Assembly (NCBI RefSeq): GCF_024169315.1 | Contig: NZ_JALJWR010000001.1 | Location: 641,501 to 705,500 of the forward strand | DNA: 64,000 bases | Direction: 5' to 3' | DNA from: Pseudomonas migulae | Lineage (GTDB): Bacteria; Pseudomonadota; Gammaproteobacteria; Pseudomonadales; Pseudomonadaceae | Part shown: one piece after another, positions 47,816 to 64,000 of the stretch | How the letters are laid out: every line of letters begins with the position of its first letter | Numbering within the stretch: the stretch's first letter is position 1 | The notes under the pieces: generated by a model | What the model was told of the DNA's origin: nothing | Seen by the model: only the letters and a program-made list of their open reading frames with translations | Database searches by the model: none | Program-made: the position numbers and the translations under genes

Positions 47816-48796
47816 CTATACGACTTTCAGATGCGCATAGCTATCAACGAAACGCTTAAATTTGTGTTTGCCGCAAGTGTACGCTTCATACTTCGCGGGC
47901 AAGGCCTCACTTACGCAAGTTGGCACAGGCTCAACAACCGCATCGAAATCCAAATCAATAAAGAAAGGTATTGAATAGCGCTCTAGACCGCTAGTATTTA
48001 TGACGCGATGCATTGTCGAGGTGTAGCGATCGTTGGTGAGTGTTTGAACCAGATCACCAATATTGACGATAAAAGTACCTTCAACGGGTGGGGCAGTAAC
48101 CCACTCCCCTGCACGGTTCCTGACTTGCAAACCACCAACTGCGTCTTGAGACAGGACGGTCAGGAAACCGTAGTCCGTGTGTGCCCCGATACCAATCTCT
48201 TCCTGGGAAACCCTTCCGATCTGGGGCGGATAGTGCAAAATTCGCTGAATAGTGATGGGCTTGCGTTGAAGATGTTCAAAGTAATCTTGTGGCAACCCCA
48301 AACTCAGCGCTATCCCGCCGATGAGTTTTCTCGCGAGGGCCAATACAGCGGAGTGATACGCTTCGGCAACCTTCTCGAATTGCGGCAGTGCAGACGGCAT
48401 TTGATTAGGGCCAAAAAATGGAGAGACCTCATCGTAATGAGCTCCGCAATCAAAGCACTCTTTGAAATCGCGGGTATTGGCTGGATCGACGTTCTCCGCG
48501 TACATCGGTATATAACCACGTAGCGTAAGTCCGGAATTTACGACATTGAGCTTGTTTTTCTCCTCATACGGAAGTTCGAAAAACCTTTTGGTCAGCGTGT
48601 ACATCTCATCTATCAGCTGCTGGTCAATGCCATGGTTTTTTATATAAAAAAACCCCACCTTTTCGCATGCATCACCTATTTGGCTTGCCACCTTCAGCGG
48701 ATTTTCGCCGTGTATGAGCGACGATATATCTATGACTGGAATTTCAGTAAAAGCTGTTTGTTTGCTAGCCAGGCGAATATCAAAGAACTCTGTCAC
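47816..48796 (-). CDS. 2-oxoglutarate/Fe(II)-dependent dioxygenase, isopenicillin-N-synthase family
   Basis: The 326-residue protein has the DIOX_N start IPVIDISSLI, GFFYIKNHGI, the iron pair in GIGAHTDYGFLTVL, the distal His in STMHRVINTSG and the 2-oxoglutarate Arg in ERYSIPFFID. GTG 48796 is chosen as start because GGGGAG lies five to six bases before it; TTG 48814 is before that site. Members hydroxylate or desaturate small molecules. It lies divergent to the N-methylproline-demethylase-like gene and may modify the same compound (inference). Codon use is somewhat A+T-richer than neighbours. Confidence 0.88.
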   Translation of the reverse strand: MTEFFDIRLASKQTAFTEIPVIDISSLIHGENPLKVASQIGDACEKVGFFYIKNHGIDQQLIDEMYTLTKRFFELPYEEKNKLNVVNSGLTLRGYIPMYAENVDPANTRDFKECFDCGAHYDEVSPFFGPNQMPSALPQFEKVAEAYHSAVLALARKLIGGIALSLGLPQDYFEHLQRKPITIQRILHYPPQIGRVSQEEIGIGAHTDYGFLTVLSQDAVGGLQVRNRAGEWVTAPPVEGTFIVNIGDLVQTLTNDRYTSTMHRVINTSGLERYSIPFFIDLDFDAVVEPVPTCVSEALPAKYEAYTCGKHKFKRFVDSYAHLKVV

Positions 48797-48870
48797 GTGT
48801 GCTCCCCTTTCCAAACAAGTCTGTCTTGGTTTTGACGGATGTTAAGCCTGGATTTTTTGGCACGCAAGCA

Positions 48871-48914
48871 AAATGTACACCTGTGTCATCAATCGTTGAC
48901 ACAGGTGTACATTT
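48871..48914. promoter_or_regulatory. perfect 18-base inverted repeat with 8-base spacer in a divergent promoter region
   Basis: The left arm 48871-48888 begins AAATGTACACCTG and the right arm 48897-48914 is its exact reverse complement. Each arm is itself a near-palindrome (TGTACAC-CT-GTGTCA), so it may be two operator copies. It lies 54 bases before the demethylase-like gene and 75 bases from the divergent dioxygenase gene. GTACA elements recur upstream of the TetR gene at 51824-52531, making that TetR the likely binder. Confidence 0.65.
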
Positions 48915-48967
48915 GTCCTAATTTCAAGTGGCCGAGCCTGATGAAGCCCACTTTGGAGCGCACCACG

Positions 48968-51004
48968 ATGTCCAGCGATCCCTTGCTGCAACCCTATAAA
49001 ATCAAGAATCTGACCCTCAGAAACCGGATCATGACCACCTCCCATGAACCGGCCTACCCTGTGGACGGCATGCCCAAGGATCTCTATCGCGCCTACCACG
49101 TGGAGCGCGCCAAGGCCGGTGTCGCCCTGACCATGACTGCCGGTTCCGCTGCCGTATCCCGAGACAGCCCGCCGGTGTTCAACAATGTGCTCGCCTACAA
49201 GGACGAAGTCGTCGGATGGTTGAAGGATCTGACCGATGAATGCCACGAACATGGCGCGGCTGTGATGATCCAGTTGACTCACCTGGGCCGTCGCACCCGC
49301 TGGGACAAGGCCGACTGGTTACCGGTGGTGTCGCCGTCACACCGTCGCGAGGCTTCACACCGCTCCTTCCCGAAGAAAATGGAGGAATGGGACATCGAGC
49401 GGATCATCAAGGACTATGTGGACGCTGCGGAACGCATGAAGGCCGCAGGTCTCGATGGCCTGGAGCTTCAGGCATACGGGCATTTGATGGACCAGTTCTG
49501 GTCACCGTTGACCAATGACCTCGACGGCCCTTACGGCGGGTCGCTGGAAAACCGCATGCGCTTTACCTTCGACGTCTTGCGTGGCATCCGCCAGCGAGTA
49601 GGCGAAGATTTTCTGCTGGGCGTTCGCTACACCGGTGATGAAGAATTGCCCGGTGGCTTTACTGCCAGCGAGGGCATGCAGGTTTCTCACATGCTCAAGG
49701 ACAGCGGACTGGTCGACTTCCTGAACGTCGTGCGTGGTCACATCGATACGGACGCAGGGCTGACCGATGTCATCCCGATTCAGGGTATGCGCAACTCGCC
49801 CCATCTCGACTTCGCTGGTGAGATCCGCTCGTCGACAGGCTTTCCGACCTTCCACGCGGCGAAGATTCCCGATGTCGCCACCGCGCGCTACGCGATTGCC
49901 TCGGGCAAAGTGGACATGGTGGGCATGACCCGCGCGCACATGACCGATCCGCACATCGTGCGCAAAATCATCGAGAAGCGCGAAGAAGACATTCGCCCGT
50001 GCGTGGGCGCCAACTACTGTCTGGATCGCATCTACCAGGGCGGCGCGGCCTACTGCATCCACAACGCAGCGACGGGGCGGGAAACCACCATGCCTCACGA
50101 CATTCCCAAAGCCGCGGTCAAGCGCAAGGTGCTGGTGGTCGGTACCGGCCCTGCCGGGCTGGAAGCGGCGCGGGTAGCCGGTGAGCGCGGCCATGATGTG
50201 ACAGTGCTTGAGGCGGCTGACCAACCTGGCGGGCAGATTCGTCTGACTGCATTGAGCGAGCGTCGTCGCGAGATGATCAGCATCATTGATTGGCGCATGG
50301 CGCAATGCGAGCGGCTGGGGGTGAAGTTTCACTTCAACACCTGGGCCGAAGCCGACACCGTGCAAGCCTTCGAGCCTGACGTGGTCATCGTTGCGACCGG
50401 CGGCCTGCCTGATACCGAGGTGCTCCGCGAAGGCAACGAACTCGTGGTTTCAACCTGGGACATCATTTCCGGCGACATCAAGCCCGGCCGCAACGTACTG
50501 ATCTTCGACGATGCGGGGGATCATGCTGCTCTGCAAGCTGCCGAGGTCATCGCGCAAAGCGGTGCGAGAGTCGAAATCGTCACCCCTGACCGCTCGTTTG
50601 CACCTGAAGTCATGGCCATGAACCTGGTGCCCTACATGCGCAGCCTTCAGGACCTGGACGTCACCTTCACCGTCACCTATCGGGTCGATACAGTGGAAAA
50701 ACGTGATGGCGGGCTCGTTGCAACCTTTGGCAGCGATTACGGCAAGGTTCACAAGCAGCGAGTGGTCGATCAGGTGGTCGTCAACCACGGCACCCTTCCT
50801 CTGGACGACTTGTACTTCGAGCTGCGTCCTCTCTCCACCAATGGCGGTGCGGTAGAGCAGCACGACCTGATCGCCGGCACGGCACAGAACATCGTCACCC
50901 ATCCCGAAGGACGCTTCCAGCTGTTCCGGATCGGCGACGCCGTGTCTGCTCGCAACACCCACGCGGCCATCTACGACGCTTTGCGCCTGATGAAAGACAT
51001 CTGA
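48968..51004 (+). CDS. N-methylproline demethylase-like FMN/FAD oxidoreductase
   Basis: The 678-residue protein has an old-yellow-enzyme FMN barrel (about 1-350, LLQPYKIKNLTLRNRIMTTS; QLTHLGRRTRW) and an NAD(P)/FAD-binding half from about residue 380 (LVVGTGPAGLEAARVAGERG), the layout of dimethylamine dehydrogenase and 2,4-dienoyl-CoA reductase. The iron-sulfur region reads CVGANYC then, after 11 residues, C in YCIHN, lacking the second Cys of CxxCxxxC; I recall this form from N-methylproline demethylases of stachydrine/hydroxyproline-betaine pathways. GGAG sits nine bases before ATG 48968. It would remove the last N-methyl group after the Rieske enzyme acts. Confidence 0.85.
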   Translation: MSSDPLLQPYKIKNLTLRNRIMTTSHEPAYPVDGMPKDLYRAYHVERAKAGVALTMTAGSAAVSRDSPPVFNNVLAYKDEVVGWLKDLTDECHEHGAAVMIQLTHLGRRTRWDKADWLPVVSPSHRREASHRSFPKKMEEWDIERIIKDYVDAAERMKAAGLDGLELQAYGHLMDQFWSPLTNDLDGPYGGSLENRMRFTFDVLRGIRQRVGEDFLLGVRYTGDEELPGGFTASEGMQVSHMLKDSGLVDFLNVVRGHIDTDAGLTDVIPIQGMRNSPHLDFAGEIRSSTGFPTFHAAKIPDVATARYAIASGKVDMVGMTRAHMTDPHIVRKIIEKREEDIRPCVGANYCLDRIYQGGAAYCIHNAATGRETTMPHDIPKAAVKRKVLVVGTGPAGLEAARVAGERGHDVTVLEAADQPGGQIRLTALSERRREMISIIDWRMAQCERLGVKFHFNTWAEADTVQAFEPDVVIVATGGLPDTEVLREGNELVVSTWDIISGDIKPGRNVLIFDDAGDHAALQAAEVIAQSGARVEIVTPDRSFAPEVMAMNLVPYMRSLQDLDVTFTVTYRVDTVEKRDGGLVATFGSDYGKVHKQRVVDQVVVNHGTLPLDDLYFELRPLSTNGGAVEQHDLIAGTAQNIVTHPEGRFQLFRIGDAVSARNTHAAIYDALRLMKDI

Positions 51005-51014
51005 ACCCAAAAGC

Positions 51015-51036: not shown

Positions 51037-51057
51037 ACTGCATGTCCCCTGCCCTGG

Positions 51058-51834
51058 CTACATTCCCCGCCGCGCAACCTCAGCGCCTGCCTTTATTGCC
51101 CGCCCGACAATGGACTCGATGTTCTGATCGGCCATCGACTGCAGCGCTGCCGCCGTCACGCCACGGTAAGCCATCAACGATTCAATCATTTGCCGCGGAT
51201 CGCGGTTGGCAAGCATCTGGCCGCCCCCCACCACGACGCCTTGTGCAGCGCGTTGTGCGATAGCAAGAGGAATTCCGGCAGCCACCGCCTGATTAGTCAG
51301 TGCCAATTGCAGCATTGCCGGAAAGGCCGGGCCAGTCCCGGATAACGCGCTGAGATAATCAATGCAGTCTTCATCAGGCACTTCATCCGCCGAACCTACG
51401 CACTCGAACAGTCGCTGCACCCACTGGCGGTCACGTTCAACAAGGTTTCCGACACAGTACCAAGGTGTGAACGACTGCCTGATTTCCACGGCCGCATTCG
51501 GCATGGCCCGCACTATTACATCCGCACCGGTGGCCGCGCTGATGGCTGCCGCCGGAACGCCGGCCATCAAAGAAATCACTGGCTTGCCGCGAGCATTGAT
51601 CTGCAGTTCACGAAACTGCTCCGGCCGGATGGACAGCACGACAATATCGCTGAGGTCCACCAACTGCTGGTTGTCGGCGAGCAACTTCACACCTGGCTCG
51701 AAGGTACTGACGCCGGAGCGGTTCGAGATCAACAAATGGCCGGGCTCGATGAAACCGCTTTCAAGGAGCGCCTCGGCAATTGCACGCCCCAACCAGCCGG
51801 TGCCACCAATGACGCCCAGCGTTCTATTCGCCAT
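51058..51834 (-). CDS. pyrroline-5-carboxylate reductase-like protein
   Basis: The protein of 258 residues has the ProC Rossmann motif TLGVIGGTGWLGRAIAEALL, VVLSIRPEQFRELQIN, IVRAMPNAAVEIRQ-like strand (VIVRAMPNAAVEI) and LSGTGPAFPAMLQLA with the conserved SGxGPA loop. ProC proteins reduce pyrroline carboxylates to proline. As a second ProC beside demethylase genes it may act on an imino acid from the betaine pathway. Its start overlaps the end of the TetR gene by 11 bases, so the two are co-transcribed. Confidence 0.88.
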   Translation of the reverse strand: MANRTLGVIGGTGWLGRAIAEALLESGFIEPGHLLISNRSGVSTFEPGVKLLADNQQLVDLSDIVVLSIRPEQFRELQINARGKPVISLMAGVPAAAISAATGADVIVRAMPNAAVEIRQSFTPWYCVGNLVERDRQWVQRLFECVGSADEVPDEDCIDYLSALSGTGPAFPAMLQLALTNQAVAAGIPLAIAQRAAQGVVVGGGQMLANRDPRQMIESLMAYRGVTAAALQSMADQNIESIVGRAIKAGAEVARRGM

Positions 51835-52531
51835 CGGCAGTGGACTCCTCGAATGTTTCGACCAAGGGGACGAAAACGCCGGGCTCTTTTTCTGCGTAGC
51901 CAAACTTTCCATAAAAGCGGTCCAGCTCGCGCCGCTTCGGAACTTTGCCGGTAAACACGCTCACGTACTGAGGAATCCGTCGAAATCGAATGACGATATC
52001 TTCATTGGTTTTCATGGAGATGTAGCCGATCTGCGTGAGGTAGATCGTCCTGGCCCGAACATCGGCCCCCTCGCCGTCGTAGCCAAACCGTCGGAACATC
52101 GCGGCCAGGGCATTCATTCGTGCCTCATCGGCCAGAGCGATTTCAGCTTTGACTTCGTCCGATTGCAGCGCCCAACTGCGCACTGCAAATTCGAACTGTG
52201 AATCGAACAGCTCGGGGTTCACCCAGCACTCGAAGACGTTGAGAATCGCTTCGGAAATACTTTCCGCATAACTCTCACATTGGCTGACCATACCGCCAGT
52301 GTTCTTGTCCCGCCATCGAGCGAGGAGCGCCGCGAGCAGCTGTTCCCGATCTTCATAGAACCAATAGAAGCTGGTGCGAGACAAATTCAAGCGTTTGGCC
52401 AGCGGCATTACCCGCACAGCATCCACACCCGACTCTTTAAGGGCATCGTAGGCTGCGTCCAGCCAACCATCGACGGAGCCTCGCCAGCCTGCATCCTGCG
52501 CTTTGGTTTTCGCCCTTCCTGTCTGTGACAT
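51824..52531 (-). CDS. TetR-family transcriptional regulator
   Basis: The 235-residue regulator has the helix-turn-helix VMPLAKRLNLSRTSFYWFYE and then DREQLLAALLARW, and a long helical ligand domain. It is transcribed with the ProC-like gene (11-base overlap). The GTACA-rich region directly upstream (52567-52616) and the inverted repeat at 48871-48914 share TGTACA half-sites and are likely operators, which would place the demethylase-like gene, the dioxygenase gene and itself under one control. Confidence 0.9.
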   Translation of the reverse strand: MSQTGRAKTKAQDAGWRGSVDGWLDAAYDALKESGVDAVRVMPLAKRLNLSRTSFYWFYEDREQLLAALLARWRDKNTGGMVSQCESYAESISEAILNVFECWVNPELFDSQFEFAVRSWALQSDEVKAEIALADEARMNALAAMFRRFGYDGEGADVRARTIYLTQIGYISMKTNEDIVIRFRRIPQYVSVFTGKVPKRRELDRFYGKFGYAEKEPGVFVPLVETFEESTADGE

Positions 52532-52827: not shown

Positions 52828-53595
52828 ATGAAGTTTAATAATAAAGTGGTGATCATCACCGGCGCTGCCGGGGGCGTCGGACAGGCGTTAGCATTACTGT
52901 TCGCCCGAGAAGGCGCAAAGCTTGTTTTGTCTGATCTTGATGAAGCTGGTTGCAAATCAATTTCCGCCAAAGTTCGTGAACTTGGCGCCGAAGTGCACTA
53001 CGTGGCAGGCGATTTACGCCGAAAAGAATATTGCGAAGCGATTGTCCAGACTGCCGTCGATGTTTTTTCGGGAATCGACATCGTATTGAACAATGCGGGC
53101 ATCATTCCCCGCGGCACGATTGAGGAAACCACTGACGACATGTGGTTTGACGCCATGGGCGTAAACCTGAATGCGGTGTTCTTCATCTGCCGTGCCGCGA
53201 TACCGCACATGAAAAATCGCCCGGGCGCCGCCATCGTCAACACATCATCTGTGTGGGGTATCTATCCCGGCCCCGCCCACGTGGCGTATTGCACAAGCAA
53301 AGGGGCCGTCGCGGCGTTAACCGAGAATCTGGGCCGCGATTGCGCCCCTTTGGGCATCCGTGTCAACGCCGTGTGCCCGCACGAAATCAATACCCCGATG
53401 ATACGCAGCGGCTTTGAGCGTCGAGGCCTGGATCCGGATAAAGCCGTGCAGGAACTGAACAAGAGCGTGCCATTGGGCCGTATCGCCGAGCCTGAAGACA
53501 TTGCGGATGTCATCGCATTTCTGGCGTCCGACGAGGCCAGGTACATCGCCGGTGAAACGGTAGAAGTCACAGGCGCCAAGCCGGTATCCGGCTAA
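52828..53595 (+). CDS. short-chain dehydrogenase/reductase
   Basis: The 255-residue SDR has VVIITGAAGGVGQALALLFA for the cofactor, VLNNAGIIPRG, catalytic Ser in NTSSVWGIYPG and YCTSK, and ends ARYIAGETVEVTGAKPVSG. The first half of the gene is richer in A+T than the second. It starts a two-gene plus-strand operon with another SDR 11 bases downstream. Oxidation or reduction of a hydroxylated pathway intermediate is the family expectation. Confidence 0.92.
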   Translation: MKFNNKVVIITGAAGGVGQALALLFAREGAKLVLSDLDEAGCKSISAKVRELGAEVHYVAGDLRRKEYCEAIVQTAVDVFSGIDIVLNNAGIIPRGTIEETTDDMWFDAMGVNLNAVFFICRAAIPHMKNRPGAAIVNTSSVWGIYPGPAHVAYCTSKGAVAALTENLGRDCAPLGIRVNAVCPHEINTPMIRSGFERRGLDPDKAVQELNKSVPLGRIAEPEDIADVIAFLASDEARYIAGETVEVTGAKPVSG

Positions 53596-53606: not shown

Positions 53607-54362
53607 ATGCTCAAAGGTAAAAATGCAGTGGTGACCGGGGGCGGCAGAGGGATTGGCCGAGGCATCACCGAACAACTGCTGGAGGCGGGAGCTTCTGTGT
53701 TGATCGCTCAGCGTCAGGCACTGGACGCCGACTTGCAGAACCATCCGCAGGTCTATTTCGTCGAAGCTGATCTCGCTTCGATGGAGTCACCGAATTTGAT
53801 CGCCCACTTCGCTCAGGAGCAGCTTGGCGGAATCGATGTATTGGTCAACAACGCCGGGTTCATGTTCGAGAAGTCCATCGATGATATGACCGAGCAGGAC
53901 TGGGATCGCATGATGGCTGTCAATCTGCGGGCTCCAGCGTTCTTGTGTAAGGCGTTGGTCCCACAGATGCGTCAGCGAGGCGGTGGCAGCATCATCAACA
54001 TCGGGTCGATCGAAGGGATAGGCGCCAACCCGGAACATGCCGCGTACTGTGCCTCCAAGGCCGGCATCCATGGGCTGACCCGAGCCTTGGCAATCGATCT
54101 CGGCCGCGATGGCATTCGCTGCAACGCCATTGCTCCGGGGTGGATAAACTCCGAGCTGAGTGATGCATACCTCTCTGCTCAAGCGGATCCGCGTGCGGCG
54201 CGCCAGGCACTCCTGCGCCTTCACCCGGTCGGACGTACCGGATTGCCGGCGGATGTGGGCGGGACAGTCGTTTTCCTGGCTTCCGAATCATCGGCCTTCA
54301 TTACCGGACAGGTACTGGTGGTGGATGGGGGGCGCACGGCGAAACTGCCACTGCCGTTTTGA
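53607..54362 (+). CDS. short-chain dehydrogenase/reductase
   Basis: The 251-residue SDR has AVVTGGGRGIGRGITEQLL, DVLVNNAGFMFEKS, Ser in NIGSIEGIGANP and YCASK, and VLVVDGG before the C-terminus. GGAGAG precedes the ATG. It lies 11 bases after the previous SDR gene and is followed by a hairpin. The two SDRs are too different to be a recent duplication and may act on successive or stereoisomeric substrates. Confidence 0.92.
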   Translation: MLKGKNAVVTGGGRGIGRGITEQLLEAGASVLIAQRQALDADLQNHPQVYFVEADLASMESPNLIAHFAQEQLGGIDVLVNNAGFMFEKSIDDMTEQDWDRMMAVNLRAPAFLCKALVPQMRQRGGGSIINIGSIEGIGANPEHAAYCASKAGIHGLTRALAIDLGRDGIRCNAIAPGWINSELSDAYLSAQADPRAARQALLRLHPVGRTGLPADVGGTVVFLASESSAFITGQVLVVDGGRTAKLPLPF

Positions 54363-54466: not shown

Positions 54467-55381
54467 TCACGCCTTCGCTTTGATCGCATACAGCCCACCG
54501 ATGATCACCAACGCTGCGCCGACAACCACCCAGGTATCCGGTTGCTCGGCAAAAACGATTACACCAATCAACGTGGCGAACACCAGAAGCGCATAGTTGA
54601 AAGGCTGCAAGGTTGAAGCCGTCGCGTATTTCAGTGCTTGAATGAAGAGAATCTGTGCGACGACTCCCGTCAATGCCAGGATCCCCATCAAGAGGCCCTG
54701 GATCGGAGTCGGAGAAACCCATGCAGGCAGCCCCGCAAATGTGACCGTCAGGGCCCCCACACACGCCATGAAGAGCATGTTCGTAGCAAAGGAGTCGTGC
54801 TGGCTGATTCGACGCGTCAGTACGTTGAATACCGCGAACGCCAAAGCAGCCAGCAGCGGGATCAGCGCCGCGAGTTCAAAAACTCCCGCGCCTGGCCGGA
54901 GGATGACCAGTGTGCCGGTGAACCCTATGGCCGCTGCAATCCAGCGCCGCAGACCTATGAACTCCCCAAGCACGGTCCCCGCCAAGGCCAGTGTCATCAG
55001 CGGAAATACGGCATAAAGTGCGTGCATTTCGGCCAGGCCCAAATATCGTAGCCCCACCGCAAACAGCAGGGTTTCACCCACGGCTAACAGCGCTCGAATG
55101 ATTTGCAGCCAAGGGTGCTTACTGCGAAACGTCGCCTGGCCCCTGCCTAGGTAAGCGGCATATCCGAGAGCAAAAACGACAAACACCCAATAACGCACCA
55201 TGACCAGTTGGGCAACCGGGAAGTCTTTGACCAGCACCTTGGTTACGCCGTCCTGGCTGGCGAAAATCAGCATTGAAAGCAGGCAGAGGAAAATCCCGAG
55301 TTGGGGCCTCGCGATCCCGGGATTAGCAGCAGCGGTGGGCGTCGTTAAATGCGCAATATTTTTTGTTCGGTCGCTATTCAA
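54467..55381 (-). CDS. EamA/DMT-family transporter
   Basis: The 304-residue protein has ten hydrophobic helices in two EamA repeats (MLIFASQDGVTKVLVKDFPV in the first; AVFNVLTRRISQHDSFAT in the second). DMT proteins export or import small metabolites. It is the last gene of the dapA-like/ALDH/FAD-oxidase operon, 69 bases downstream of the oxidase gene, and may export or import an intermediate. Confidence 0.9.
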   Translation of the reverse strand: MNSDRTKNIAHLTTPTAAANPGIARPQLGIFLCLLSMLIFASQDGVTKVLVKDFPVAQLVMVRYWVFVVFALGYAAYLGRGQATFRSKHPWLQIIRALLAVGETLLFAVGLRYLGLAEMHALYAVFPLMTLALAGTVLGEFIGLRRWIAAAIGFTGTLVILRPGAGVFELAALIPLLAALAFAVFNVLTRRISQHDSFATNMLFMACVGALTVTFAGLPAWVSPTPIQGLLMGILALTGVVAQILFIQALKYATASTLQPFNYALLVFATLIGVIVFAEQPDTWVVVGAALVIIGGLYAIKAKA

Positions 55382-55450: not shown

Positions 55451-56797
55451 TCAGCCTTCTCGCCCGGCCCAAAACTCATGCCAGCGAATAACCGAACTGA
55501 CGCCCAGTTTCGTTATTATCCTGGGGGGTAGCTTGCTGGGGCCTGGTGCGTGACTGAAGCTATCGAGAAACTCCGAACGCGTACCCGAGGCCAACTCCGC
55601 AGCCATCACACCGGCCAGGGTGCTTTTCACAGTACCCAGTCCGTTTTCGCAGCAAGCCGAGTACAGGTTTTCTTCAATCTCGCCAAATGCAGCGGCGCTG
55701 TTACGACTCAGACACAGGCGGCCGGCCCAACTGAATTCCAACGCAGTGGATTTCAATTCGGGAAAGCGCGCATCCAGGGAGTGTCGCTGTTCTTTGGCCA
55801 CCGCCGCTACCCGCTCTGGAGTGACCTGGATACTCGGGTCATAGGTGAACTTGGTCCGGATGACGATACGCGAGAGACCGTCTGAAGAGATCTTGCGGAC
55901 GGTCGCGCCCATTGGGTCCGCCGGCAACAAGGCCCATTTAGCTTTGCCGGGTACGTCTTTCCTGAGCTCATTATCACTGTACGCGGCGGTCATGGAGGCA
56001 TAAGTGAAGACGTGCAACAGTCGTCCTTGATAATGGCCAAAGTCTTCAATGTGCCCGTTAACCCCCAGGATGACCTTGGGTGCATGCACCGTCCCGTTAT
56101 GAGATCGAGCGCTCCAACCGCTACCCTGCCTGGTCAACTCAACAATCGGAGAGCGTTCGAACAGCGTGATTTTCCCTTCGAGCCCTGCTGCCAGGTCTCT
56201 AATGTATTGCGCGGGTTGAATCATCACGGCGCCGGGCGTGTAGATCCCACCGTGATAATAGGTAGACCCGGTGATTTCGCGCATTTGCGCGGCATCGAAC
56301 ATCTGGAACTTCTCGCCAATGCGTTCAAGGGATTGAGCGTAATTGACGTTCAGTTTCAATCCCCGCTCAGTGGCGGCCGCGTTGATCTTCCCGGAAGGGT
56401 CGAACGTGTCGGCAGACATGCCGTACTCCCGCGCAGCGGCAGCGGCAAAAGCAATCGCAAAGCGGTTCTGCGCAATTTCCAGCGCCGTTGCAGACTCACT
56501 CGCCACCGAGTATTCCCCGGACGACAGACTGTGCGGCACATCGATCATGAAACCAGAGTTTCTGCCCGCCGGCCCCTTGGCGACTTCATGAGCATCGACC
56601 ACGACAATGCTGTCACCGGGGTGCAGCTGTGAAAGTCTGCGAGCGGCGGACAGGCCGGCAAAACCGGCCCCGATAATCAGCCAGTCCGCCGTCACGTTTC
56701 CATCAAGCATGCGGACAGGCGCAGTGCGTTCGGAAATCGCCTCCCAACCTGAAACCCCGGTATCTACCGGCAGGCGCTTGATGGTATGGGTGCTCAT
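55451..56797 (-). CDS. FAD-dependent oxidoreductase (DAO/PuuB-like)
   Basis: The 448-residue protein has the FAD motif LIIGAGFAGLSAARRL (residues 41-56), GRNSGFMIDVPH after it, and a C-terminal LYSACCENGLGTVKSTLAG, as in gamma-glutamylputrescine oxidases and other amine oxidases of the DAO family. Such enzymes oxidise secondary or primary amines to imines with oxygen or a quinone. Its ATG overlaps the ALDH stop by four bases. In a hydroxyproline-betaine scheme it would oxidise cis-4-hydroxy-D-proline; in a polyamine-like scheme it would feed the aldehyde dehydrogenase. The sequence alone does not decide. Confidence 0.88.
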   Translation of the reverse strand: MSTHTIKRLPVDTGVSGWEAISERTAPVRMLDGNVTADWLIIGAGFAGLSAARRLSQLHPGDSIVVVDAHEVAKGPAGRNSGFMIDVPHSLSSGEYSVASESATALEIAQNRFAIAFAAAAAREYGMSADTFDPSGKINAAATERGLKLNVNYAQSLERIGEKFQMFDAAQMREITGSTYYHGGIYTPGAVMIQPAQYIRDLAAGLEGKITLFERSPIVELTRQGSGWSARSHNGTVHAPKVILGVNGHIEDFGHYQGRLLHVFTYASMTAAYSDNELRKDVPGKAKWALLPADPMGATVRKISSDGLSRIVIRTKFTYDPSIQVTPERVAAVAKEQRHSLDARFPELKSTALEFSWAGRLCLSRNSAAAFGEIEENLYSACCENGLGTVKSTLAGVMAAELASGTRSEFLDSFSHAPGPSKLPPRIITKLGVSSVIRWHEFWAGREG

Positions 56798-58311
56798 TTT
56801 TCGGTCTCTTCATCCGACCGATCAGACACATCGATCCAGATGGTTTTGATTTCGGTGTACTGGTCATGGGCGAAAATGGATTTGTCCCGACCGCCGAAGC
56901 CCGACTCCTTGTAGCCACCGAAGGGTGTCGATGCGTCGCCCTCACCAAAGCAGTTCACGGTGACGATGCCCGCGCGAATTTCCCGCGACAACTTGATTGC
57001 CCGCCGCAGGCTGCCGGTATATACCGAGGCCGCGAGTCCGTAGACCGTGTCATTGGCCAGGGCAATGGCTTCGGAGATCGTGTTGAAGGTGGTGACCGAG
57101 AGAATCGGGCCGAAGATCTCTTCCTGGAACAGCCGGTTGTCTCGACCGACACCGTCAATCACCGTCGGCTCTACAAAGGCGCCGTCTTTGGTCGCGCCAC
57201 CGTAAACCACTTCAAGCTTTCCGGCGGCGGCGTGCTCAAGGTACGACTTCACTTTGGCAAAATGCTCAGGGCTGACCAGCGACCCTACGCGGTTTTCCGG
57301 ATCGAGTGGATCGCCCATTTTCCATTCGCGGATGTAGGCGCCCATGCGCTTCAGCAGCTCGTCCTTAACCGATGCATGGACGATCAGACGAGAAGTTGCG
57401 GAGCAGTTTTCGCCCATGTTCCAGAACGCGCCATTGACCACGTGCTGAGCGACGAGATCCAGGTCTTGGGCATCGTCCATCACCACGGCCGGATTTTTTC
57501 CGCCGCACTCGAGGACGATGCGTTTCAGGTTCGAATCGGCGGCGTAATGCAGGAAACGACGGCCGGTCGCGGTGGAGCCGGTGAAGCTGACCATGTCGAC
57601 ATCGTTATGCAAACCAATCGGTTCACCGACGTCCTTGCCCGTGCCGGTGACAATGTTGAGTACGCCGGCAGGTACGCCGGCTTCGAACGCCAGCTGCGCG
57701 ACACGCAACGTGGTCAGCGAGGTTTGCTCAGCAGGTTTGACGATGACCGAACAGCCTGCAGCGAGCGCCGGGCCGATTTTCCAGGCCAGCATCAGCAGCG
57801 GGAAGTTCCAGGGCAATACGCAGCCCACCACGCCGATTGGCTCCCGAACTACCATGGTCAGCGCGTCGCTGCCCACCGGAGCGGTGTTGTCGTAAATCTT
57901 GTCAATCAGTTCTGCGTGCCAGCGGATCGTGTGGATGGTGTCCGGGATGTCGACCAACTGGCATTCACTGACCGGTTTGCCGCTATCGAGGCTTTCGAGG
58001 ACGGCCAGTTCATGTTGATGGCTTTCAAGCAGGTTTGCGAATTTCAACAGGACCGCTTTGCGCTCCCGCGGAGAAACGGATCTCCAGCGCCCATCCTCAA
58101 AGGCCTCCTTGGCATTGCTCACCGCGAAGTCGACATCCTCGGACGAACACGCTGCGACGTCGGTCAAAAAGTCACCGGTCGCCGGGTTGTTCGTGGCGAA
58201 GGTTTTGCCAGAGATCGCAGGCTTGAATGCGCCATTGATGAACGCCTTGGACGGCAACGCAATGTCTTTGGCCAGCGCGGCATATTCGGCCTTGCTCAGA
58301 AGATCACCCAT
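56794..58311 (-). CDS. aldehyde dehydrogenase (PuuC-like)
   Basis: The 505-residue NAD(P)-dependent enzyme has all catalytic residues: Asn169 in LPWNF, Lys192 in VKPAEQ, Glu268 in LECGGKNP and Cys303 in NMGENCSA. It resembles gamma-glutamyl-aminobutyraldehyde and betaine-aldehyde dehydrogenases. It overlaps the dapA-like gene by eight bases and the FAD oxidase gene by four, so three enzymes are translationally coupled. A 494-codon open frame opposite it is a shadow. Confidence 0.93.
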   Translation of the reverse strand: MGDLLSKAEYAALAKDIALPSKAFINGAFKPAISGKTFATNNPATGDFLTDVAACSSEDVDFAVSNAKEAFEDGRWRSVSPRERKAVLLKFANLLESHQHELAVLESLDSGKPVSECQLVDIPDTIHTIRWHAELIDKIYDNTAPVGSDALTMVVREPIGVVGCVLPWNFPLLMLAWKIGPALAAGCSVIVKPAEQTSLTTLRVAQLAFEAGVPAGVLNIVTGTGKDVGEPIGLHNDVDMVSFTGSTATGRRFLHYAADSNLKRIVLECGGKNPAVVMDDAQDLDLVAQHVVNGAFWNMGENCSATSRLIVHASVKDELLKRMGAYIREWKMGDPLDPENRVGSLVSPEHFAKVKSYLEHAAAGKLEVVYGGATKDGAFVEPTVIDGVGRDNRLFQEEIFGPILSVTTFNTISEAIALANDTVYGLAASVYTGSLRRAIKLSREIRAGIVTVNCFGEGDASTPFGGYKESGFGGRDKSIFAHDQYTEIKTIWIDVSDRSDEETEK

Positions 58312-59215
58312 GGCTGGCTCCCGAAGAAATATTGGCTACGTTACGTTTGAGTTCAGTAATGACCGACGCGAAGCTCTGCTTTTCGTCCGCTTCCAGTGGC
58401 TGCAATGGCAGGCGCACGTTACCGACGTTCAATCCGGCAACTTCGCAGCCGTACTTGATCGACTGCACGAACTTGCCACCGTCCAGGGCATTCATCAGCG
58501 GCATCATTGCCGACATGATTTGACGGCTTTTATCGAAGTTCTTTTCGATCACGCAGGCTTCATACAGCGCAACGTGTTCCCTGGGCAGGAAGTTGGAACC
58601 TGCGCACACCCAACTGCGGGCGCCCCAGGCAAAAAACTCGAGGGCCTGGTCGTCCCATCCGCAGGACAAGGCGATGTTGGGGAACTGCCGGGCCAGCATA
58701 TGCACCTGACCCATGTCGCCGGAACTTTCCTTGATGGCGACGACGTTTTTCGATTGGCTGACACGCGTGAAATATTCTTCGTCCATCGAAACGCACATGC
58801 GCCCCGGATAGTTGTAAAGCATGATCGGCAGGTCGGCGGCGCGATCAATCGTCAATGCGTGGATCGCGTTTTCCTGGGAGGTCGGCAGCGCATACGGCGG
58901 GCTGGTGACGAGAATGGCGTCCGCTTTGATCGATTTGGCATCCTTGGCGTACTGAACCGCATCTTCGGTGCGAATCGCCCCGGTACTGACGATCAGTTGC
59001 ACCCGTGTGCCGATCACATCTTTGGCGTAGGCTGCCAACTCGGTGCGTTCTTCCGCAGTCTGCGCATAATACTCGCCGGTCGACCCACCGATAATAATGC
59101 CATGCACCTTCGCCTCGATCAGCGACTCCAAAACTTCCGAGTACACGTTCCAGTCAATCTCCCCATCAGAGTTATAAGGAGTTACTGCTGGCGTATAGAT
59201 ACCTTCAAATTTCAA
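58304..59215 (-). CDS. dihydrodipicolinate synthase-family lyase/deaminase
   Basis: The 303-residue Schiff-base (beta/alpha)8 enzyme has the substrate loop GGSTGE (43-48), Tyr134 in LYNYPGRM and the catalytic Lys162 in AIKESSGD. The family includes DapA, N-acetylneuraminate lyase, KDG aldolase/dehydratase and the pyrroline-4-hydroxy-2-carboxylate deaminase of hydroxyproline catabolism. It is first in an operon with the ALDH and FAD oxidase genes, the same enzyme trio that converts cis-4-hydroxy-D-proline to 2-oxoglutarate, which favours the deaminase reading. Confidence 0.9.
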   Translation of the reverse strand: MKFEGIYTPAVTPYNSDGEIDWNVYSEVLESLIEAKVHGIIIGGSTGEYYAQTAEERTELAAYAKDVIGTRVQLIVSTGAIRTEDAVQYAKDAKSIKADAILVTSPPYALPTSQENAIHALTIDRAADLPIMLYNYPGRMCVSMDEEYFTRVSQSKNVVAIKESSGDMGQVHMLARQFPNIALSCGWDDQALEFFAWGARSWVCAGSNFLPREHVALYEACVIEKNFDKSRQIMSAMMPLMNALDGGKFVQSIKYGCEVAGLNVGNVRLPLQPLEADEKQSFASVITELKRNVANISSGASHG

Positions 59216-59928
59216 GATAAATGCTCCGAATGCGAGTTAGGTAGGAGATCAACGAACGCGTCAGCTTTGATGCCTTGAGGCGCGACAAGAATCTTCATGT
59301 TTTCACGGGACGGTTCCCCCTGCTCAAACACGAGATCAATTGCGGCACTTTGCTTAACTGTTGAATCCAGACTGGCATGGGCCAAGAAGTCGGTCAATAG
59401 AGTGTATTTCCCGCATATACATTTTCAGATGGATGCTTCACACACCCTTGAAAATATCTTTTCCTTTGTTTTCAATAGTTTGAAATTTCCTTGCCGATGC
59501 CAAGACGTCAATCGATAACATTTGATTATGCATTGATAAGAGTAAATGTTTCTTGTTGATGCATGATTGCCGTCGTAGCCTTACAACAGCGATATTCTAC
59601 TGACGAATTGGAAAATAGAATTTCTCGTACATTCGTTCCATTAGTTGGAAACTGTTTGTTCGGGGTCGAATAAGGTGCTGTAGCAACATTGTCTGCCTTA
59701 ATAAGGACTCGAACGAAATGAGTGCACGGATGGCACCACCATCCAAGAAGGCACATTTTGCGTAAGACGCTTCCTGGACGTGGCAAAACGTTCCGGTTCG
59801 CGGATAGAAGCAGCACGGTTTGATGGGCTTGCATCCACAGGCGGTACTGCGAACTCAAGACCGTTTGGCCTCATCTCGCTGAGCAGGCTGAATGTGTCGC
59901 CCCCTTGGTATTTTGGAGTGTGTTGACC
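59216..59928. other. 713-base divergent region between the dapA-like and Rieske genes
   Basis: It is A+T-richer than its surroundings. Short frames at 59212-59397 and 59526-59858 (minus) have TTG or unconvincing starts and no recognised family, so I do not call them. The region must hold the promoters of two catabolic operons and possibly sites for the LysR or TetR regulators. Confidence 0.5.
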
Positions 59929-61164
59929 GTGAGCACTAAATCGGCAGTTTCAAATCTAATCGCGCAGCGCAAGCCTGACCACGCGCTGCCAGGTGCCCTT
60001 TATAGCGATCCCGACGTTTACAGGCAGGATCTGGAACAGATCTGGCACAAAAGCTGGATCTTCGCAGGGCACACATTTGAGCTGGAGAAGTCGGGTCAAT
60101 ACCTGTCGCTGCAAATCGGCGATTACCCTGTCGCTATCGTGCGCGGCGCAGACAAGCAGATTCGTGCCTTCCACAATGCCTGTCGCCATCGCGGTTCCAA
60201 GGTGTGCCCGGAAGCCAGCGGCAAGGTCGCCAAGCTGGTGTGCCCTTACCACAAATGGACATTCGAACTGGATGGTCGCCTGCTGTTCGCCGGGAACATG
60301 GCGGACGATTTCGACAAGTCTCAGCATGGGTTGAAGCCCGTGCACTGTGAGGTGGTCGAAACGTATATCTACGTGTGCGTGGCAGATATCGCCCCAGACT
60401 TTTCGTCGTTCAGAAAATCCGTCACCCCTTTCGTTGCGCCGCATAACCTGGACGACTGCAAAGTCGCGTTTGAGTCGAACATCATCGAGAAAGGCAACTG
60501 GAAACTGGTTTTCGAGAACAACCGCGAGTGCTACCACTGCGATTTTACTCACCCGGAACTGATGCACTCATTCGTGGACAACCCATCAGTGGGCGGCGCC
60601 GGAGGCGATGAAGATCTCGAACTCAAAGAGCATTGGGATCGCTGCGAGGCGGCAGGTTTGCCTAGCCGATTGGTCATGGATGATGACGGTCGTTTCCGTA
60701 TGACGCGCATCCCCCTGTTTTCCGGGGCCGTCAGCTACACCATGGATGGCAAGCCTGCGGTTGCCGGTCGCTTGGATACAACCGGTGAAGCCAACATCGG
60801 TGCGCTGCTTTACTTCAACTATCCATCCACCTGGAACCACTTTCTGGGCGATCACGCGCTGAGCTTCCGCGTTCTGCCCATCGGTCCAGGCGAGACGATG
60901 GTAACTACAAAATGGCTCGTCAAGAAAGACGCGCAGGAAGGTGTCGACTACGACATCGATCGCCTGACCAAGGTTTGGCTAGCAACCAATGACCAGGACC
61001 GCACTTTGGTTGAGGGCGCACAGGTGGGTGTCAGCTCTCCAGCTTTCGAGCCAGGCCCTTTGTCGGTGGCCAGCGAAATCGGTGTGTGCCAGTTTGATGA
61101 CTGGTACTGCAAAACGATGCTTGAGCAGCTCAATGACACGATCCCGTTAAGATCTGTCGGCTAA
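59929..61164 (+). CDS. Rieske-type betaine demethylase-like oxygenase
   Basis: The 411-residue protein has the Rieske cluster ligands C85, H87, C105 and H108 (NACRHRGSKV; LVCPYHKW) and a mononuclear iron site in FENNRECYHCDFTHPE (H203, H208). This is the GbcA/Stc2 type that N-demethylates glycine betaine or stachydrine. The start is GTG 59929 with GGAG ten bases upstream; the frame is open earlier. No reductase partner follows; it may be encoded outside the window. The gene faces the dapA-like operon across a 713-base gap. Confidence 0.93.
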   Translation: MSTKSAVSNLIAQRKPDHALPGALYSDPDVYRQDLEQIWHKSWIFAGHTFELEKSGQYLSLQIGDYPVAIVRGADKQIRAFHNACRHRGSKVCPEASGKVAKLVCPYHKWTFELDGRLLFAGNMADDFDKSQHGLKPVHCEVVETYIYVCVADIAPDFSSFRKSVTPFVAPHNLDDCKVAFESNIIEKGNWKLVFENNRECYHCDFTHPELMHSFVDNPSVGGAGGDEDLELKEHWDRCEAAGLPSRLVMDDDGRFRMTRIPLFSGAVSYTMDGKPAVAGRLDTTGEANIGALLYFNYPSTWNHFLGDHALSFRVLPIGPGETMVTTKWLVKKDAQEGVDYDIDRLTKVWLATNDQDRTLVEGAQVGVSSPAFEPGPLSVASEIGVCQFDDWYCKTMLEQLNDTIPLRSVG

Positions 61165-61175
61165 GTGCAGCACTG

Positions 61176-61208
61176 CCGGTGGTGAGAACCACGAATGATC
61201 ACCACCGG
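61176..61208. terminator. perfect ten-pair hairpin between convergent genes
   Basis: CCGGTGGTGA (61176-61185) pairs exactly with TCACCACCGG (61199-61208), loop of 13, between the stops at 61164 (+) and 61263 (-). It is a strong terminator candidate although the U-run is short. Confidence 0.7.
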
Positions 61209-61262
61209 TATCTTGATTCACACCTTCAATCCCCTTGTTCGTGTTCCATTCTTCCAGGCGGC

Positions 61263-62216
61263 TCAGGAGAACTGGGCCAGAATCCAGTCGCGTAGCCGGC
61301 AACAGGCGTCGTCATTGATCCGGTCTTCACGAAATGTCAGATAGTGCTGACTTTCATGGAGAACCACTTCCTCTTCGATCGGCCGAATCAGCGTGCCGTT
61401 TTCAACCAGGGTTGCAACCAGGTGATTCCATCCGAGGGCTACGCCCTGATGGGTCAGTACCATGCTGATGACCAGGTTGTAGTCGTTGGCGTTGAAAACG
61501 TGAGGGCTGTCGTGGGGGCGTTTTTCGATATCAACATCGTGATAAGCCAGCCAAACGCCCCAATCAACGTGCTCCGCCACCTGGGATCTGCCATAGGGGC
61601 TTAGGTTAAGCAAAACCCCGTCGCGTAATCCTTCCAGGCTGGACAGCTCAGGGTGCTCCTCTTTGTAACGAGGTGTGCACACCGGATAGATGACGTCGTG
61701 AAACAACGGATAACTGCGGTAGCCATCCTGAATCCTGGCCATTTTGGTGATGAAGATGTCTGGAGTGACACCCGGTTCCATCGACAGGAAGTTTTGAGTG
61801 GTGACCAGATTGAGGTCGATGTCTGTGTTCCTGGTAAAAAAACCCGGCAACTTCGCTGCGAGCCAGAGGGCTGAGAACGCGGGAGAACAGCAAAGTGTCA
61901 ACGTGCGCTTGCCTGCATTGTTGGTGCGAATGCGCTCCGCCGCCTGGGAAATGTTGACGAAAGATAATTGTGCCGCATCAAAAAAGATCGATCCGGCTTC
62001 CGTCAACTCGACTGCTCGCCCCACCCTCTTGAAGAGATCCACCCCAAGGTACGTTTCAAGCTCCCGAATCTGACGACTGATTGCCGCTTGCGTAACGCAC
62101 AGCGCTTCAGCCGCACGCGTAAAGCTTTGGTATTTGGCAGCGGCTACGAATGACTTCACTGCTTTCAGGGACGGCATTTTCAGCAGCGTCATGTCTGGAT
62201 CGATGTGCTTAACCAT
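61263..62216 (-). CDS. LysR-family transcriptional regulator (GcvA-like)
   Basis: The 317-residue protein begins with the GcvA-type winged helix MPSLKAVKSFVAAAKYQSFT, ALCVTQAAISRQIRELETYL, LFKRVGRAVELTEAG. The effector domain follows. It is convergent with the Rieske gene and divergent from the ABC transporter, so it is the likely inducer-responsive activator of betaine uptake and demethylation. Confidence 0.92.
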   Translation of the reverse strand: MVKHIDPDMTLLKMPSLKAVKSFVAAAKYQSFTRAAEALCVTQAAISRQIRELETYLGVDLFKRVGRAVELTEAGSIFFDAAQLSFVNISQAAERIRTNNAGKRTLTLCCSPAFSALWLAAKLPGFFTRNTDIDLNLVTTQNFLSMEPGVTPDIFITKMARIQDGYRSYPLFHDVIYPVCTPRYKEEHPELSSLEGLRDGVLLNLSPYGRSQVAEHVDWGVWLAYHDVDIEKRPHDSPHVFNANDYNLVISMVLTHQGVALGWNHLVATLVENGTLIRPIEEEVVLHESQHYLTFREDRINDDACCRLRDWILAQFS

Positions 62217-62547: not shown

Positions 62548-62607
62548 ATGACTAACTCGCAACCTTTCTCCCAGCTTGACTGCCCCCATAAGCACCGTCT
62601 TCACTGA
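62548..62607 (+). CDS. 19-residue leader-like peptide ORF
   Basis: The ORF encodes MTNSQPFSQLDCPHKHRLH. GAGGA lies about ten bases before its ATG. It ends 57 bases before the ABC ATPase gene. A leader peptide is possible; chance is not excluded. Confidence 0.3.
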   Translation: MTNSQPFSQLDCPHKHRLH

Positions 62608-62664
62608 TCAAGATACGTATATCCAAATTCTTGATCTTACGTCGTATTTGCAGCAGGAGGGGTT

Positions 62665-63702
62665 ATGAGTCTTGGTGATGAGATACTCTCGGTAAAAAAC
62701 ATTTACAAAGTCTTTGGTACTCAGCCAAAGCTCGCGATGGAGATGCTGGCTCGCGGTGCTGATAAAAGTGAAATTTTCAGCAAAACCGGTCAAGTCGTTG
62801 GCGTTTTTGATGCCAGTTTCTCCGTAAAACGTGGAGAGATTTTCGTCATCATGGGGCTTTCCGGGTCCGGGAAGTCGACGATGGTGCGGTTGTTCAATCG
62901 ATTGATCGAGCCGACCTCCGGAACCATCCACCTCAACGGCCAGGAAATCACCGGCCTGTCGGATGCTGATCTCCTCAGCGTTCGCCGCAAAGACATGAGC
63001 ATGGTGTTTCAGTCGTTTGCCCTGATGCCCCACATGAGTGTGATCGACAACGTTGCTTTCGGCCTGGAAATCTCGGGCGTCGAGGAAAGTGAACGGCATA
63101 AGCGTGCACTCGAGGCACTCAAACAGGTGGGGCTCGATGGCCACGCCTACAGCTATCCGCACCAACTGTCCGGCGGTATGCAACAGCGGGTAGGCCTGGC
63201 CCGAGCGCTGGCCAACGACCCCGCCATCCTGCTGATGGACGAAGCCTTCTCGGCACTCGATCCGTTGATTCGCCACGAAATGCAGGGCGAACTGATCCGC
63301 CTGCAGGCAGAACAGCATCGCACCATCATCTTCATCTCCCATGACATTGAGGAGGCGATTCGCATCGGCCATCGCATTGCAATCATGGAGGGTGGCCGGG
63401 TGGTACAGATCGGTACCCCGCAAGAGCTGCTTTGCAACCCTGCGAACGATTACGTCAGAGCTTTCTTCAAAGGCTTTGATGCCTCGAAGATCCTCAAGGC
63501 TGGCGACGTTGCCAAGATCTGTGCAGAGCATCCGTACGCCATGGATCAATCCACGCCTACGCTGCGCGACGATGTACTCCTGCAGGACGTCTTTCACATT
63601 GTTGCTGATGCCGTTAATCCAGTTGCTGTGCTGGATCGCCAGGGTGTGTTCAAAGGCACGATCTCCAAGAGCCTACTGCTTCAGACAATGAGCCGGCACT
63701 AA
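62665..63702 (+). CDS. glycine-betaine/proline-type ABC transporter ATPase
   Basis: The 345-residue ATPase is of the ProV/OpuAA type: an N-terminal extension with [17 protein letters not shown], Walker [10 protein letters not shown] (64-72), signature [14 protein letters not shown], Walker [13 protein letters not shown]-loop ISHDIEEA, and a shortened C-terminal CBS-like region. AGGAGGGG precedes the ATG. The permease gene follows after 47 bases. It supplies energy for uptake of a quaternary amine, matching the demethylase genes upstream. Confidence 0.93.
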
Positions 63703-63749
63703 TAGTCTCTATTTGCTGGCTTGCCAGGCTCGGATATTCAGGTGATGAC

Positions 63750-64000
63750 ATGAACGAATTCAGTTTTCTAGACCCGTTTCAATCCCTCAACGTCCCTTTG
63801 GGCCAATGGGTAGAAGTTGCCCTGAATTATCTGGTTCATAATTTCCGCGAGGTATTCCGTTCGATTAGATGGCCAATCGATCAGGTACTTAATGGAATTC
63901 AGTTCGGGTTGTTGGCTATTCCTCCGTCGATATTCATTATTTTTGCGACGCTCCTGGGCTGGCAGGTAGGAGGGAGAAAGATTGGAATCCTTTGTTTCGT
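63750..64000 (+). CDS. glycine-betaine/proline-type ABC permease, N-terminal part
   Basis: The frame opens MNEFSFLDPFQSLNVPLGQW, with the amphipathic segment and first transmembrane helix (LLAIPPSIFIIFATLLGWQV) of ProW/OpuAB permeases, and runs off the right edge. AGGTGA precedes the ATG. It is the second gene of the transporter operon; a substrate-binding protein should follow outside the window. Confidence 0.88.
   Translation, partial: MNEFSFLDPFQSLNVPLGQWVEVALNYLVHNFREVFRSIRWPIDQVLNGIQFGLLAIPPSIFIIFATLLGWQVGGRKIGILCF

Follow-up and report, generated by a model that had tools for sequence, protein, structure and literature searches.

A probable hydroxyproline betaine degradation locus of Pseudomonas migulae with an MmgE/PrpD protein in the place of HpbD

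Hydroxyproline betaine is a plant and marine osmolyte, and its catabolism, together with that of proline betaine, reportedly involves the hpb gene cluster, as described by Zhao in 2013 and Kumar in 2014. On plasmid pPAN2 of Paracoccus pantotrophus, the gene order is fdhA, hpbD, the genes for an NAD(P) oxidoreductase, a Rieske protein, a LysR-type regulator, an FAD enzyme and a ProC-like protein, and the betaine ATP-binding cassette (ABC) genes; these are followed by a TetR gene, hpbA, a cupin gene and electron transfer flavoprotein (ETF) genes. According to excerpts of PMC4113996, the combination of a D-amino acid oxidase, a DHDPS-type enzyme and an aldehyde dehydrogenase (ALDH) represents the hydroxyproline route, and hydroxyproline betaine is its source in some organisms. 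Here we examine a 64,000-nucleotide stretch of Pseudomonas migulae (the window, G000:C1:641501-705500 of a 6.54 Mb genome in a single contig), in which a locus that occupies the right-hand part and continues beyond the window end most likely degrades hydroxyproline betaine by a variant of the known hpb route, as judged from sequence comparison. The locus is largely of a known type; what is new is that HpbD, the 2-epimerase of the enolase superfamily, is missing, and that a protein of the MmgE/PrpD family is found in its place.

An earlier note on the window had described it as carrying a candidate new locus for the degradation of betaines or N-methyl imino acids, with an oxidase, an ALDH and a DapA-like enzyme (the trio) that fitted hydroxyproline breakdown. 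Open reading frame (ORF) and family searches recovered the genes named there as intact ORFs, in the places and families given, and the metabolic reading is well supported by the demethylases of the HpbA and HpbB/Stc2 types, the betaine ABC transporter and the trio. The claim of novelty is reduced in that orthologues of the core enzymes are largely already assigned to the hpb pathway, and it survives in the missing HpbD and the MmgE/PrpD protein. The note also placed the ProC-like protein and a pair of short-chain dehydrogenases/reductases (SDR1 and SDR2) outside the described pathway, which has to be qualified: a ProC-like gene lies inside the P. pantotrophus hpbA/hpbD cluster, and in Leisingera and Alisedimentitalea the SDR pair immediately follows an HpbD ortholog.

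The flavoenzyme of the window is 78.6% identical over its full length (678 aa) to the P. pantotrophus protein annotated as HpbA (N-methyl-L-proline N-demethylase), 77% identical to its ortholog on plasmid pRL12 of Rhizobium johnstonii, and kin of trimethylamine dehydrogenase (TMADH) and histamine dehydrogenase. The Rieske, ProC-like and TetR proteins have counterparts in the Paracoccus hpb cluster (53, 39 and 52% identity), the last of which adjoins hpbA; the TetR protein is also 68% identical to the one beside the pRL12 flavoenzyme. Thus HpbA, the Rieske demethylase, the ProC-like, TetR and LysR proteins and the betaine ABC transporter, whose ProV-, ProW- and ProX-type proteins all score above their family cut-offs, are common to both clusters. 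The Pseudomonas locus adds the MmgE/PrpD protein, the SDR pair and a 2-oxoglutarate dioxygenase. Unlike the hpb cluster, it shows no linked Rieske reductase, and neither ETF nor cupin was matched in positions 43000-64000 of the window or in the 20 kb stretch that holds the genes to its right (L002).

The genes of the trio overlap by a few bases in an operon-like arrangement. In R. johnstonii, pRL12 carries a GntR-DapA-ALDH-oxidase operon whose products are 73% (DapA), 77% (ALDH) and 69% (oxidase) identical to those of the window, after which come betaine-type ABC genes and the gene for a 4-hydroxyproline epimerase (HypE; 578.4 bits, curated cut-off 376); the same 25 kb also encodes a Rieske oxygenase, an FAD-binding oxidoreductase next to it, and the HpbA ortholog. 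Orthologous DapA, ALDH, FAD oxidase, flavoenzyme and TetR proteins (68-77%) are therefore common to both loci; pRL12 differs in having the HypE epimerase, ETF and formaldehyde genes and what is presumably a Rieske reductase, and the Rieske protein there is only 40% identical. Both the families and the synteny with a 4-hydroxyproline epimerase support the assignment of the trio. In the NCBIfam matches listed, no equivalog cut-off was reached by the trio: among the 25 listed for the ALDH, the best was PuuC (538.8 of 850 bits), and the DapA-like protein scored 188.6 bits against TIGR00674, short of the cut-off of 206.15. Hydroxyproline betaine is proposed as the substrate because of the identity of HpbA and the Rieske protein and the hydroxyproline-module synteny of the trio.

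Other substrates were considered for the locus. A ProVWX-type transporter and a GbdR-like regulator would also suit the degradation of carnitine or glycine betaine, and D-carnitine dehydrogenases are SDRs, which counts for carnitine. However, the Rieske protein, with intact CxH-x17-CxxH and ENNRECYHCxxxH motifs, matches the structures 3n0q (517.7 bits) and 3vca (491.4 bits), the latter of which we take to be the stachydrine demethylase Stc2, far better than carnitine monooxygenase (109.5 bits), and a CntA-like oxygenase is thus not what the locus encodes. It also remains under the cut-off of the GbcA model (496 against 670 bits), and a separate GbcA/GbcB-like pair is located at 3.40 Mb. On this similarity and the separate pair, carnitine and glycine betaine were rejected as substrates, and we regard either of them as very improbable.

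A whole-genome search for HpbD gave a best match of 25% identity and 60.4 bits, with no ortholog. HypE, of the proline racemase family, is not in the locus: in a genome-wide search both copies (344.9 and 462.5 bits against a cut-off of 27) mapped to 1.787 and 1.797 Mb. They belong to another, lhp-like locus (L092, G000:C1:1783000-1802000), whose own DapA homolog is only about 26% identical to that of the window. An overlooked HypE or HpbD in the window is ruled out by these positions and by the genome-wide result. The earlier statement that the window has no 2-epimerase is correct for these two families, but a candidate of another family starts about 1.9 kb beyond the window end. To the right, where a binding protein, a Rieske reductase and an epimerase had been anticipated, the ProX-type binding protein was found; the only epimerase candidate is the MmgE/PrpD protein, and no reductase is present in the locus. 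The best match to a Rieske reductase in a genome-wide search with one such protein (44%) is at 3.399 Mb, beside a GbcA-like gene. In four relatives (L123-L126) a Rieske reductase (40-42%) is found beside the trio.

The placement of the MmgE/PrpD gene was compared in 80 named loci, the best 80 of 556 oxidase relatives, of which the nearest (L004-L013; P. farris, P. mandelii, P. lini and others) have oxidases 93-97% identical to that of the window. A window-type Rieske gene is present in 15 of the 22 Pseudomonas trio loci (L004-L025). MmgE/PrpD accompanies it in 13 of these 15, the other two (L008 and L009) stopping short of its place, and occurs in none of the seven loci that lack the Rieske gene, two of which are cut short. 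We also surveyed seven genes in 159 genomes of the genus, with E-value limits of 1e-150 for the oxidase and Rieske genes, 1e-90 for SDR1, 1e-50 for ProC, 1e-200 for HpbA, 1e-80 for the dioxygenase and 1e-100 for MmgE/PrpD, and then went through 40 stretches from these genomes, each of 13-20 kb. The oxidase was found in 8 genomes, SDR1 in 9, ProC in 24, HpbA in 26, the dioxygenase in 11, Rieske in 23 and MmgE/PrpD in 15. The Rieske gene is present in 14 of the 15 MmgE/PrpD genomes, at a distance that never exceeds 18 kb and in six of them is about 250 bp or less; the fifteenth (G050) shows a partial match only. Fisher p-values, which ignore phylogeny and shared ancestry, were 2.7e-13 for Rieske with MmgE/PrpD (14 genomes), 5.7e-09 for SDR1 with Rieske (9 of 9) and 7.5e-21 for HpbA with ProC (22 genomes). 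The association of these genes is not due to chance.

The positions taken by MmgE/PrpD in some genomes are those taken by HpbD in others. In L128 and L140, from two other Pseudomonas genomes, the Rieske gene of the window type has an HpbD ortholog (65-68%) beside it, and MmgE/PrpD adjoins this Rieske gene in L129-L131, L137, L138 and L142. Likewise, the order MmgE-SDR1-SDR2 is seen in L105-L108, and in L145 and L147 (Leisingera and Alisedimentitalea) it is an HpbD ortholog (65 and 70%) that directly precedes the SDR pair. The plasmid locus of Leisingera sp. M658 has SDR1 (55%), SDR2 (51%), the oxidase, ALDH and DapA in common with ours, besides a GntR gene; it differs in the HpbD ortholog at the place of MmgE/PrpD and in a Rieske protein of a type other than that of the window (25%). 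In Lichenifustis (L059), HpbD (68%), Rieske (52%), SDR1 (58%), ProC (48%) and the trio are in one locus. No tabulated locus has both MmgE/PrpD and HpbD. From these arrangements, the proposal that the MmgE/PrpD protein is a betaine 2-epimerase seems to us evenly balanced. P. mandelii strain 29 has an extra enolase-superfamily gene inside the cluster (L005, 14955-16073), whose product is 66% identical to a second Paracoccus protein of the mandelate racemase family and 34% to HpbD.

The inversion could instead take place after demethylation, as in an ordinary hpb-type route that yields trans-4-hydroxy-L-proline, which a HypE-type epimerase encoded at the lhp-like locus would invert; the MmgE/PrpD protein would then act elsewhere, for instance in the detoxification of a side product. 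The two proline-racemase-family genes of that locus, with its own DapA homolog, are in line with this, as are the pRL12 cluster, which has HypE and no MmgE/PrpD in the 25 kb read, and the HypE genes inside some Pseudomonas trio loci. It would leave unexplained, however, that MmgE/PrpD follows the Rieske gene and not the trio, and that it occupies the positions of HpbD; we consider this alternative rather unlikely.

According to excerpts of PMC12290011, the MmgE/PrpD family, with a homolog in 19.2% of GTDB species, includes iminodisuccinate (IDS) epimerase and methylsuccinate isomerase, which have C2 deprotonation in common. The protein examined here has the MmgE/PrpD fold and the catalytic histidine (H99), and is about 20% identical to IDS epimerase. 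The carboxylate-binding histidine of cis-aconitate decarboxylase is replaced by aspartate in 132 of 132 aligned homologues. Of these, 120 represent the top matches listed out of 1,076, each of the 120 with at least 65% identity. Two distant homologues (42-44%) carry the same aspartate. In the residue list of PMC12290011, as excerpted, the equivalent position is H85 of IDS epimerase; the residue alignment seen directly covered cis-aconitate decarboxylase and E. coli PrpD. The residues that would coordinate two substrate carboxylates are thus not found in these sequences, and, in contrast to the dicarboxylates of IDS epimerase and methylsuccinate isomerase, the predicted substrate is a betaine. 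A cis-aconitate decarboxylase identity was rejected, since in an alignment read by eye the counterparts of H277 and Y318, important in that enzyme according to excerpts of PMC7347537, are absent or changed. In the literature searched, outside which most subscription papers lie, no MmgE/PrpD enzyme that epimerises a betaine was found. It is a tentative proposal, somewhat short of even, that MmgE/PrpD replaced HpbD, as the family's first enzyme with a zwitterionic betaine and not a 1,4-dicarboxylate for its substrate, and that the basic-to-acidic switch at one carboxylate-binding site would recognise the quaternary ammonium.

Several observations weigh against the replacement of HpbD. Seven of the 23 Rieske-positive genomes (G024, G072, G124, G125, G149, G156 and G157) have neither MmgE/PrpD, searched genome-wide at E <= 1e-100, nor HpbD in the stretches fetched and read; therefore, either yet another solution or a gene outside the locus has to be assumed there. 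HpbD stands beside the Rieske gene in just two of the 23. MmgE/PrpD and HypE are found together in the trio loci L004, L010 and L013, and L008 and L009 have HypE and end ahead of the place of MmgE/PrpD; in these five loci free hydroxyproline could also be the compound that is inverted. In most MmgE/PrpD loci other than those of the closest relatives of the window, the oxidase is distant (33-40%). As to the protein itself, the invariance of the aspartate partly reflects kinship, no Tyr is evident where the second base of the known MmgE/PrpD epimerases would be expected, K198 of IDS epimerase is Arg in 130 of 132 sequences, and one distant homologue is clustered with an acyl-CoA dehydrogenase and a CoA ligase, where hydroxyproline betaine is not an obvious substrate.

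Two related observations concern these subjects. M24-like genes (creatinase/Xaa-Pro type) recur in L102, L117, L135 and L136, from genomes whose Rieske stretches show neither MmgE/PrpD nor HpbD; their products are distant relatives (35-37%) of an M24 protein in a Mesorhizobium locus (L146). On plasmid 1 of Paracoccus denitrificans (L122) and plasmid pB of Ancylobacter (L121), MmgE/PrpD relatives (42-44%) that carry the aspartate described above adjoin betaine ABC genes and a Rieske pair, with acyl-CoA dehydrogenase and CoA ligase genes also present in L122; these two loci possibly represent another betaine pathway that uses the same enzyme type.

In the genus, the genes form four modules. Module A is HpbA-ProC, accompanied by ETF and formaldehyde-type genes in four stretches (L101, L102, L103 and L115), and the window-type oxidase is found in only 6 of the 26 HpbA genomes. 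Module B includes the window-type Rieske gene and the LysR gene, often with betaine ABC, DapA, ALDH and oxidase genes, the oxidase being mostly divergent. Module C is MmgE/PrpD, linked to module B, and module D is SDR1-SDR2. All four are together in the genome of the window. The low frequency of the oxidase among HpbA genomes, which fits the use of proline betaine elsewhere, the divergent oxidase and DapA types at several Rieske loci and the alcohol implied by the SDR pair would all accommodate another cyclic or hydroxylated betaine (proline betaine, 3-hydroxyproline betaine or pipecolate betaine), with the trio serving an overlapping pathway. On the other hand, the deaminase step of the trio is, according to the excerpts of PMC4113996, one that acts on 4-hydroxy imino acids. 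Window-type Rieske genes occur at 25 places in the 159 genomes, and the stretches read show at least one trio gene at 22 of them; the three others are G024 and, both close to the end of a contig, G134:C63 and G157:C45. Another betaine of this kind is in our opinion distinctly improbable. No trio was found around the window-type Rieske genes of the S. meliloti, Cereibacter and P. versutus plasmids, or around the HpbA-type gene of S. meliloti. A cupin annotated as of the dimethylsulfoniopropionate lyase family recurs beside HpbA-type genes (L101, 15771-16406; L103; L003, 2670-3275 and 5025-5720; L143, 16097-16678).

In the route that we favour, on balance, over its alternatives, hydroxyproline betaine would be imported by the ProVWX-type transporter, and the MmgE/PrpD protein would invert its C2 in the stead of HpbD. 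The Rieske enzyme, with a GbcB-like reductase borrowed from elsewhere in the genome, would take off the first N-methyl group, and HpbA the second, to give cis-4-hydroxy-D-proline. This product would be converted to Delta1-pyrroline-4-hydroxy-2-carboxylate by the FAD oxidase, deaminated to alpha-ketoglutarate semialdehyde by the DapA-family enzyme, and oxidised to alpha-ketoglutarate by the ALDH. The sequences themselves show which genes are present, their order, their conservation and the cofactor motifs; from these comparisons we infer the substrate, the order of the steps and the roles of the MmgE/PrpD protein and the SDRs.

The SDR pair is consistently associated with the Rieske module. SDR2 adjoins SDR1 in all nine genus genomes with SDR1 (stretches read), all nine also have Rieske and MmgE/PrpD, and in eight SDR1 is within 20 kb of the Rieske gene. 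An Asp at the end of beta-2 denotes the NAD type, and Gln-Arg the NADP type; Asp closes beta-2 in 17 of 17 aligned SDR1 sequences and Gln-Arg in 16 of 17 of SDR2 (Asp in L146), with the active-site Tyr and Lys kept in both. NAD-dependent oxidation followed by NADPH-dependent reduction is a common way of inverting a secondary alcohol, and an inversion at C4 is proposed because the pair combines both types: SDR1 would oxidise the ring hydroxyl to a 4-oxo intermediate and SDR2 reduce it from the opposite face, which would let the other 4-epimer enter the route. This role is speculative and, by our estimate, rather unlikely. The pair may invert the C4 hydroxyl as well, the locus then handling several stereoisomers, a less likely addition that stands apart from the replacement of HpbD. 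In Leisingera and Alisedimentitalea (L145, 7173-8729; L147, 7151-8707), HpbD-SDR1-SDR2 is closely preceded by a gene of the MttB (trimethylamine methyltransferase) family, and the Mesorhizobium locus has one too (L146, 143-1663); a corrinoid demethylase of cyclic betaines is a possible function.

In the genus, 22 genomes have both ProC and hpbA, and in 21 of them the two genes are no more than 5 kb apart; ProC is a partner of the HpbA module, and as it follows HpbA and not the trio, membership of the trio was ruled out. Its role may be the reduction of an imine formed by the flavoenzyme or of pyrroline-5-carboxylate. In the dioxygenase, the HxD, H and RxS motifs for metal and 2-oxoglutarate are intact, and the best structural match is 9ovh, named an ethylene/succinate-forming enzyme (252.5 bits). 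It is within 6 kb of the HpbA, SDR1 or Rieske gene in 8 of the 11 genus genomes that have it (E <= 1e-80); in G134 and G157 it adjoins a TetR gene (53-54%), apart from the Rieske loci. The sequence comparisons made gave no evidence for or against a betaine hydroxylase or N-demethylase function.

The features are listed in Table 1. Two starts are uncertain, and the search queries were 326 aa from 48796 for the dioxygenase and 407 aa from 59941 for the Rieske protein. The LysR ortholog recurrently adjoins the Rieske gene in the stretches of relatives, and EamA relatives (57-69%) are near it in L117, L128 and L135. Beyond the GbdR-like regulator, the same 20 kb (L002) has a major facilitator superfamily transporter, a second LysR and an aldehyde dehydrogenase. 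On the other side, a 184-aa SDR frame (44847-45401, minus strand) matches SDR models from about position 80 on, the N-terminal part being absent in the frame, and is possibly a broken gene; between the regulators and the dioxygenase, a P-loop protein like dTMP kinase (46916-47533, minus strand) scores 42.7 bits against a family cut-off of 83.25.

Table 1. Features of the locus; positions refer to the window except where contig coordinates (G000:C1) are given.
Feature	Position	Strand	Basis
IPNS/EFE-type 2-oxoglutarate Fe(II) dioxygenase (predicted)	47816..48814	-	Pfam DIOX_N + 2OG-FeII_Oxy
HpbA-type FMN N-demethylase (predicted N-methyl(hydroxy)proline demethylase), OYE/TMADH-type flavoenzyme	48968..51004	+	Similarity to annotated HpbA
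ProC-like imino-acid reductase, HpbA-module accessory	51058..51831	-	TIGR00112, 153.6 bits, under cut-off 196.75
TetR-type regulator, HpbA module	51824..52531	-	Pfam TetR_N
SDR1, predicted NAD-dependent	52828..53595	+	SDR family, beta-2 motif
SDR2, predicted NADP-dependent	53607..54362	+	SDR family, beta-2 motif
EamA/DMT-family transporter	54467..55381	-	Pfam EamA
FAD-dependent cis-4-hydroxy-D-proline oxidase (predicted)	55451..56797	-	Pfam DAO; overlaps ALDH gene by 4 bp
Alpha-ketoglutarate semialdehyde dehydrogenase (predicted; ALDH family)	56794..58311	-	Pfam Aldedh
DapA-family Delta1-pyrroline-4-hydroxy-2-carboxylate deaminase (predicted)	58304..59215	-	Pfam DHDPS
Rieske betaine demethylase, GbcA/Stc2/HpbB type (predicted)	59905..61164	+	Motifs, PDB-family match
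LysR-type regulator adjoining Rieske gene	61263..62216	-	Best NCBIfam match choline-sulfate regulator, 201.6 bits, under cut-off 324.8
Betaine ABC transporter ATPase, ProV type	62665..63702	+	TIGR01186, 398 bits, cut-off 326.6
Betaine ABC permease, ProW type	63750..64000, continues past window end	+	ProW, 454.8 bits, cut-off 439
ProX-type binding protein	G000:C1:706282-707325, right of window		ProX, 469.7 bits, cut-off 215
MmgE/PrpD protein, proposed betaine 2-epimerase	G000:C1:707410-708762, right of window		MmgE fold
GbdR-like regulator	G000:C1:708811-709896, right of window		241.7 bits, under cut-off 480

If the account given here is true, it would provide a function for one branch of the large and mostly uncharacterised MmgE/PrpD family, and a clean non-orthologous replacement of the landmark enzyme HpbD. 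Several genes named '2-methylcitrate dehydratase' in their sources would then be misnamed, and the catabolism of a betaine found in plants and marine plankton would perhaps include extra stereochemical steps.

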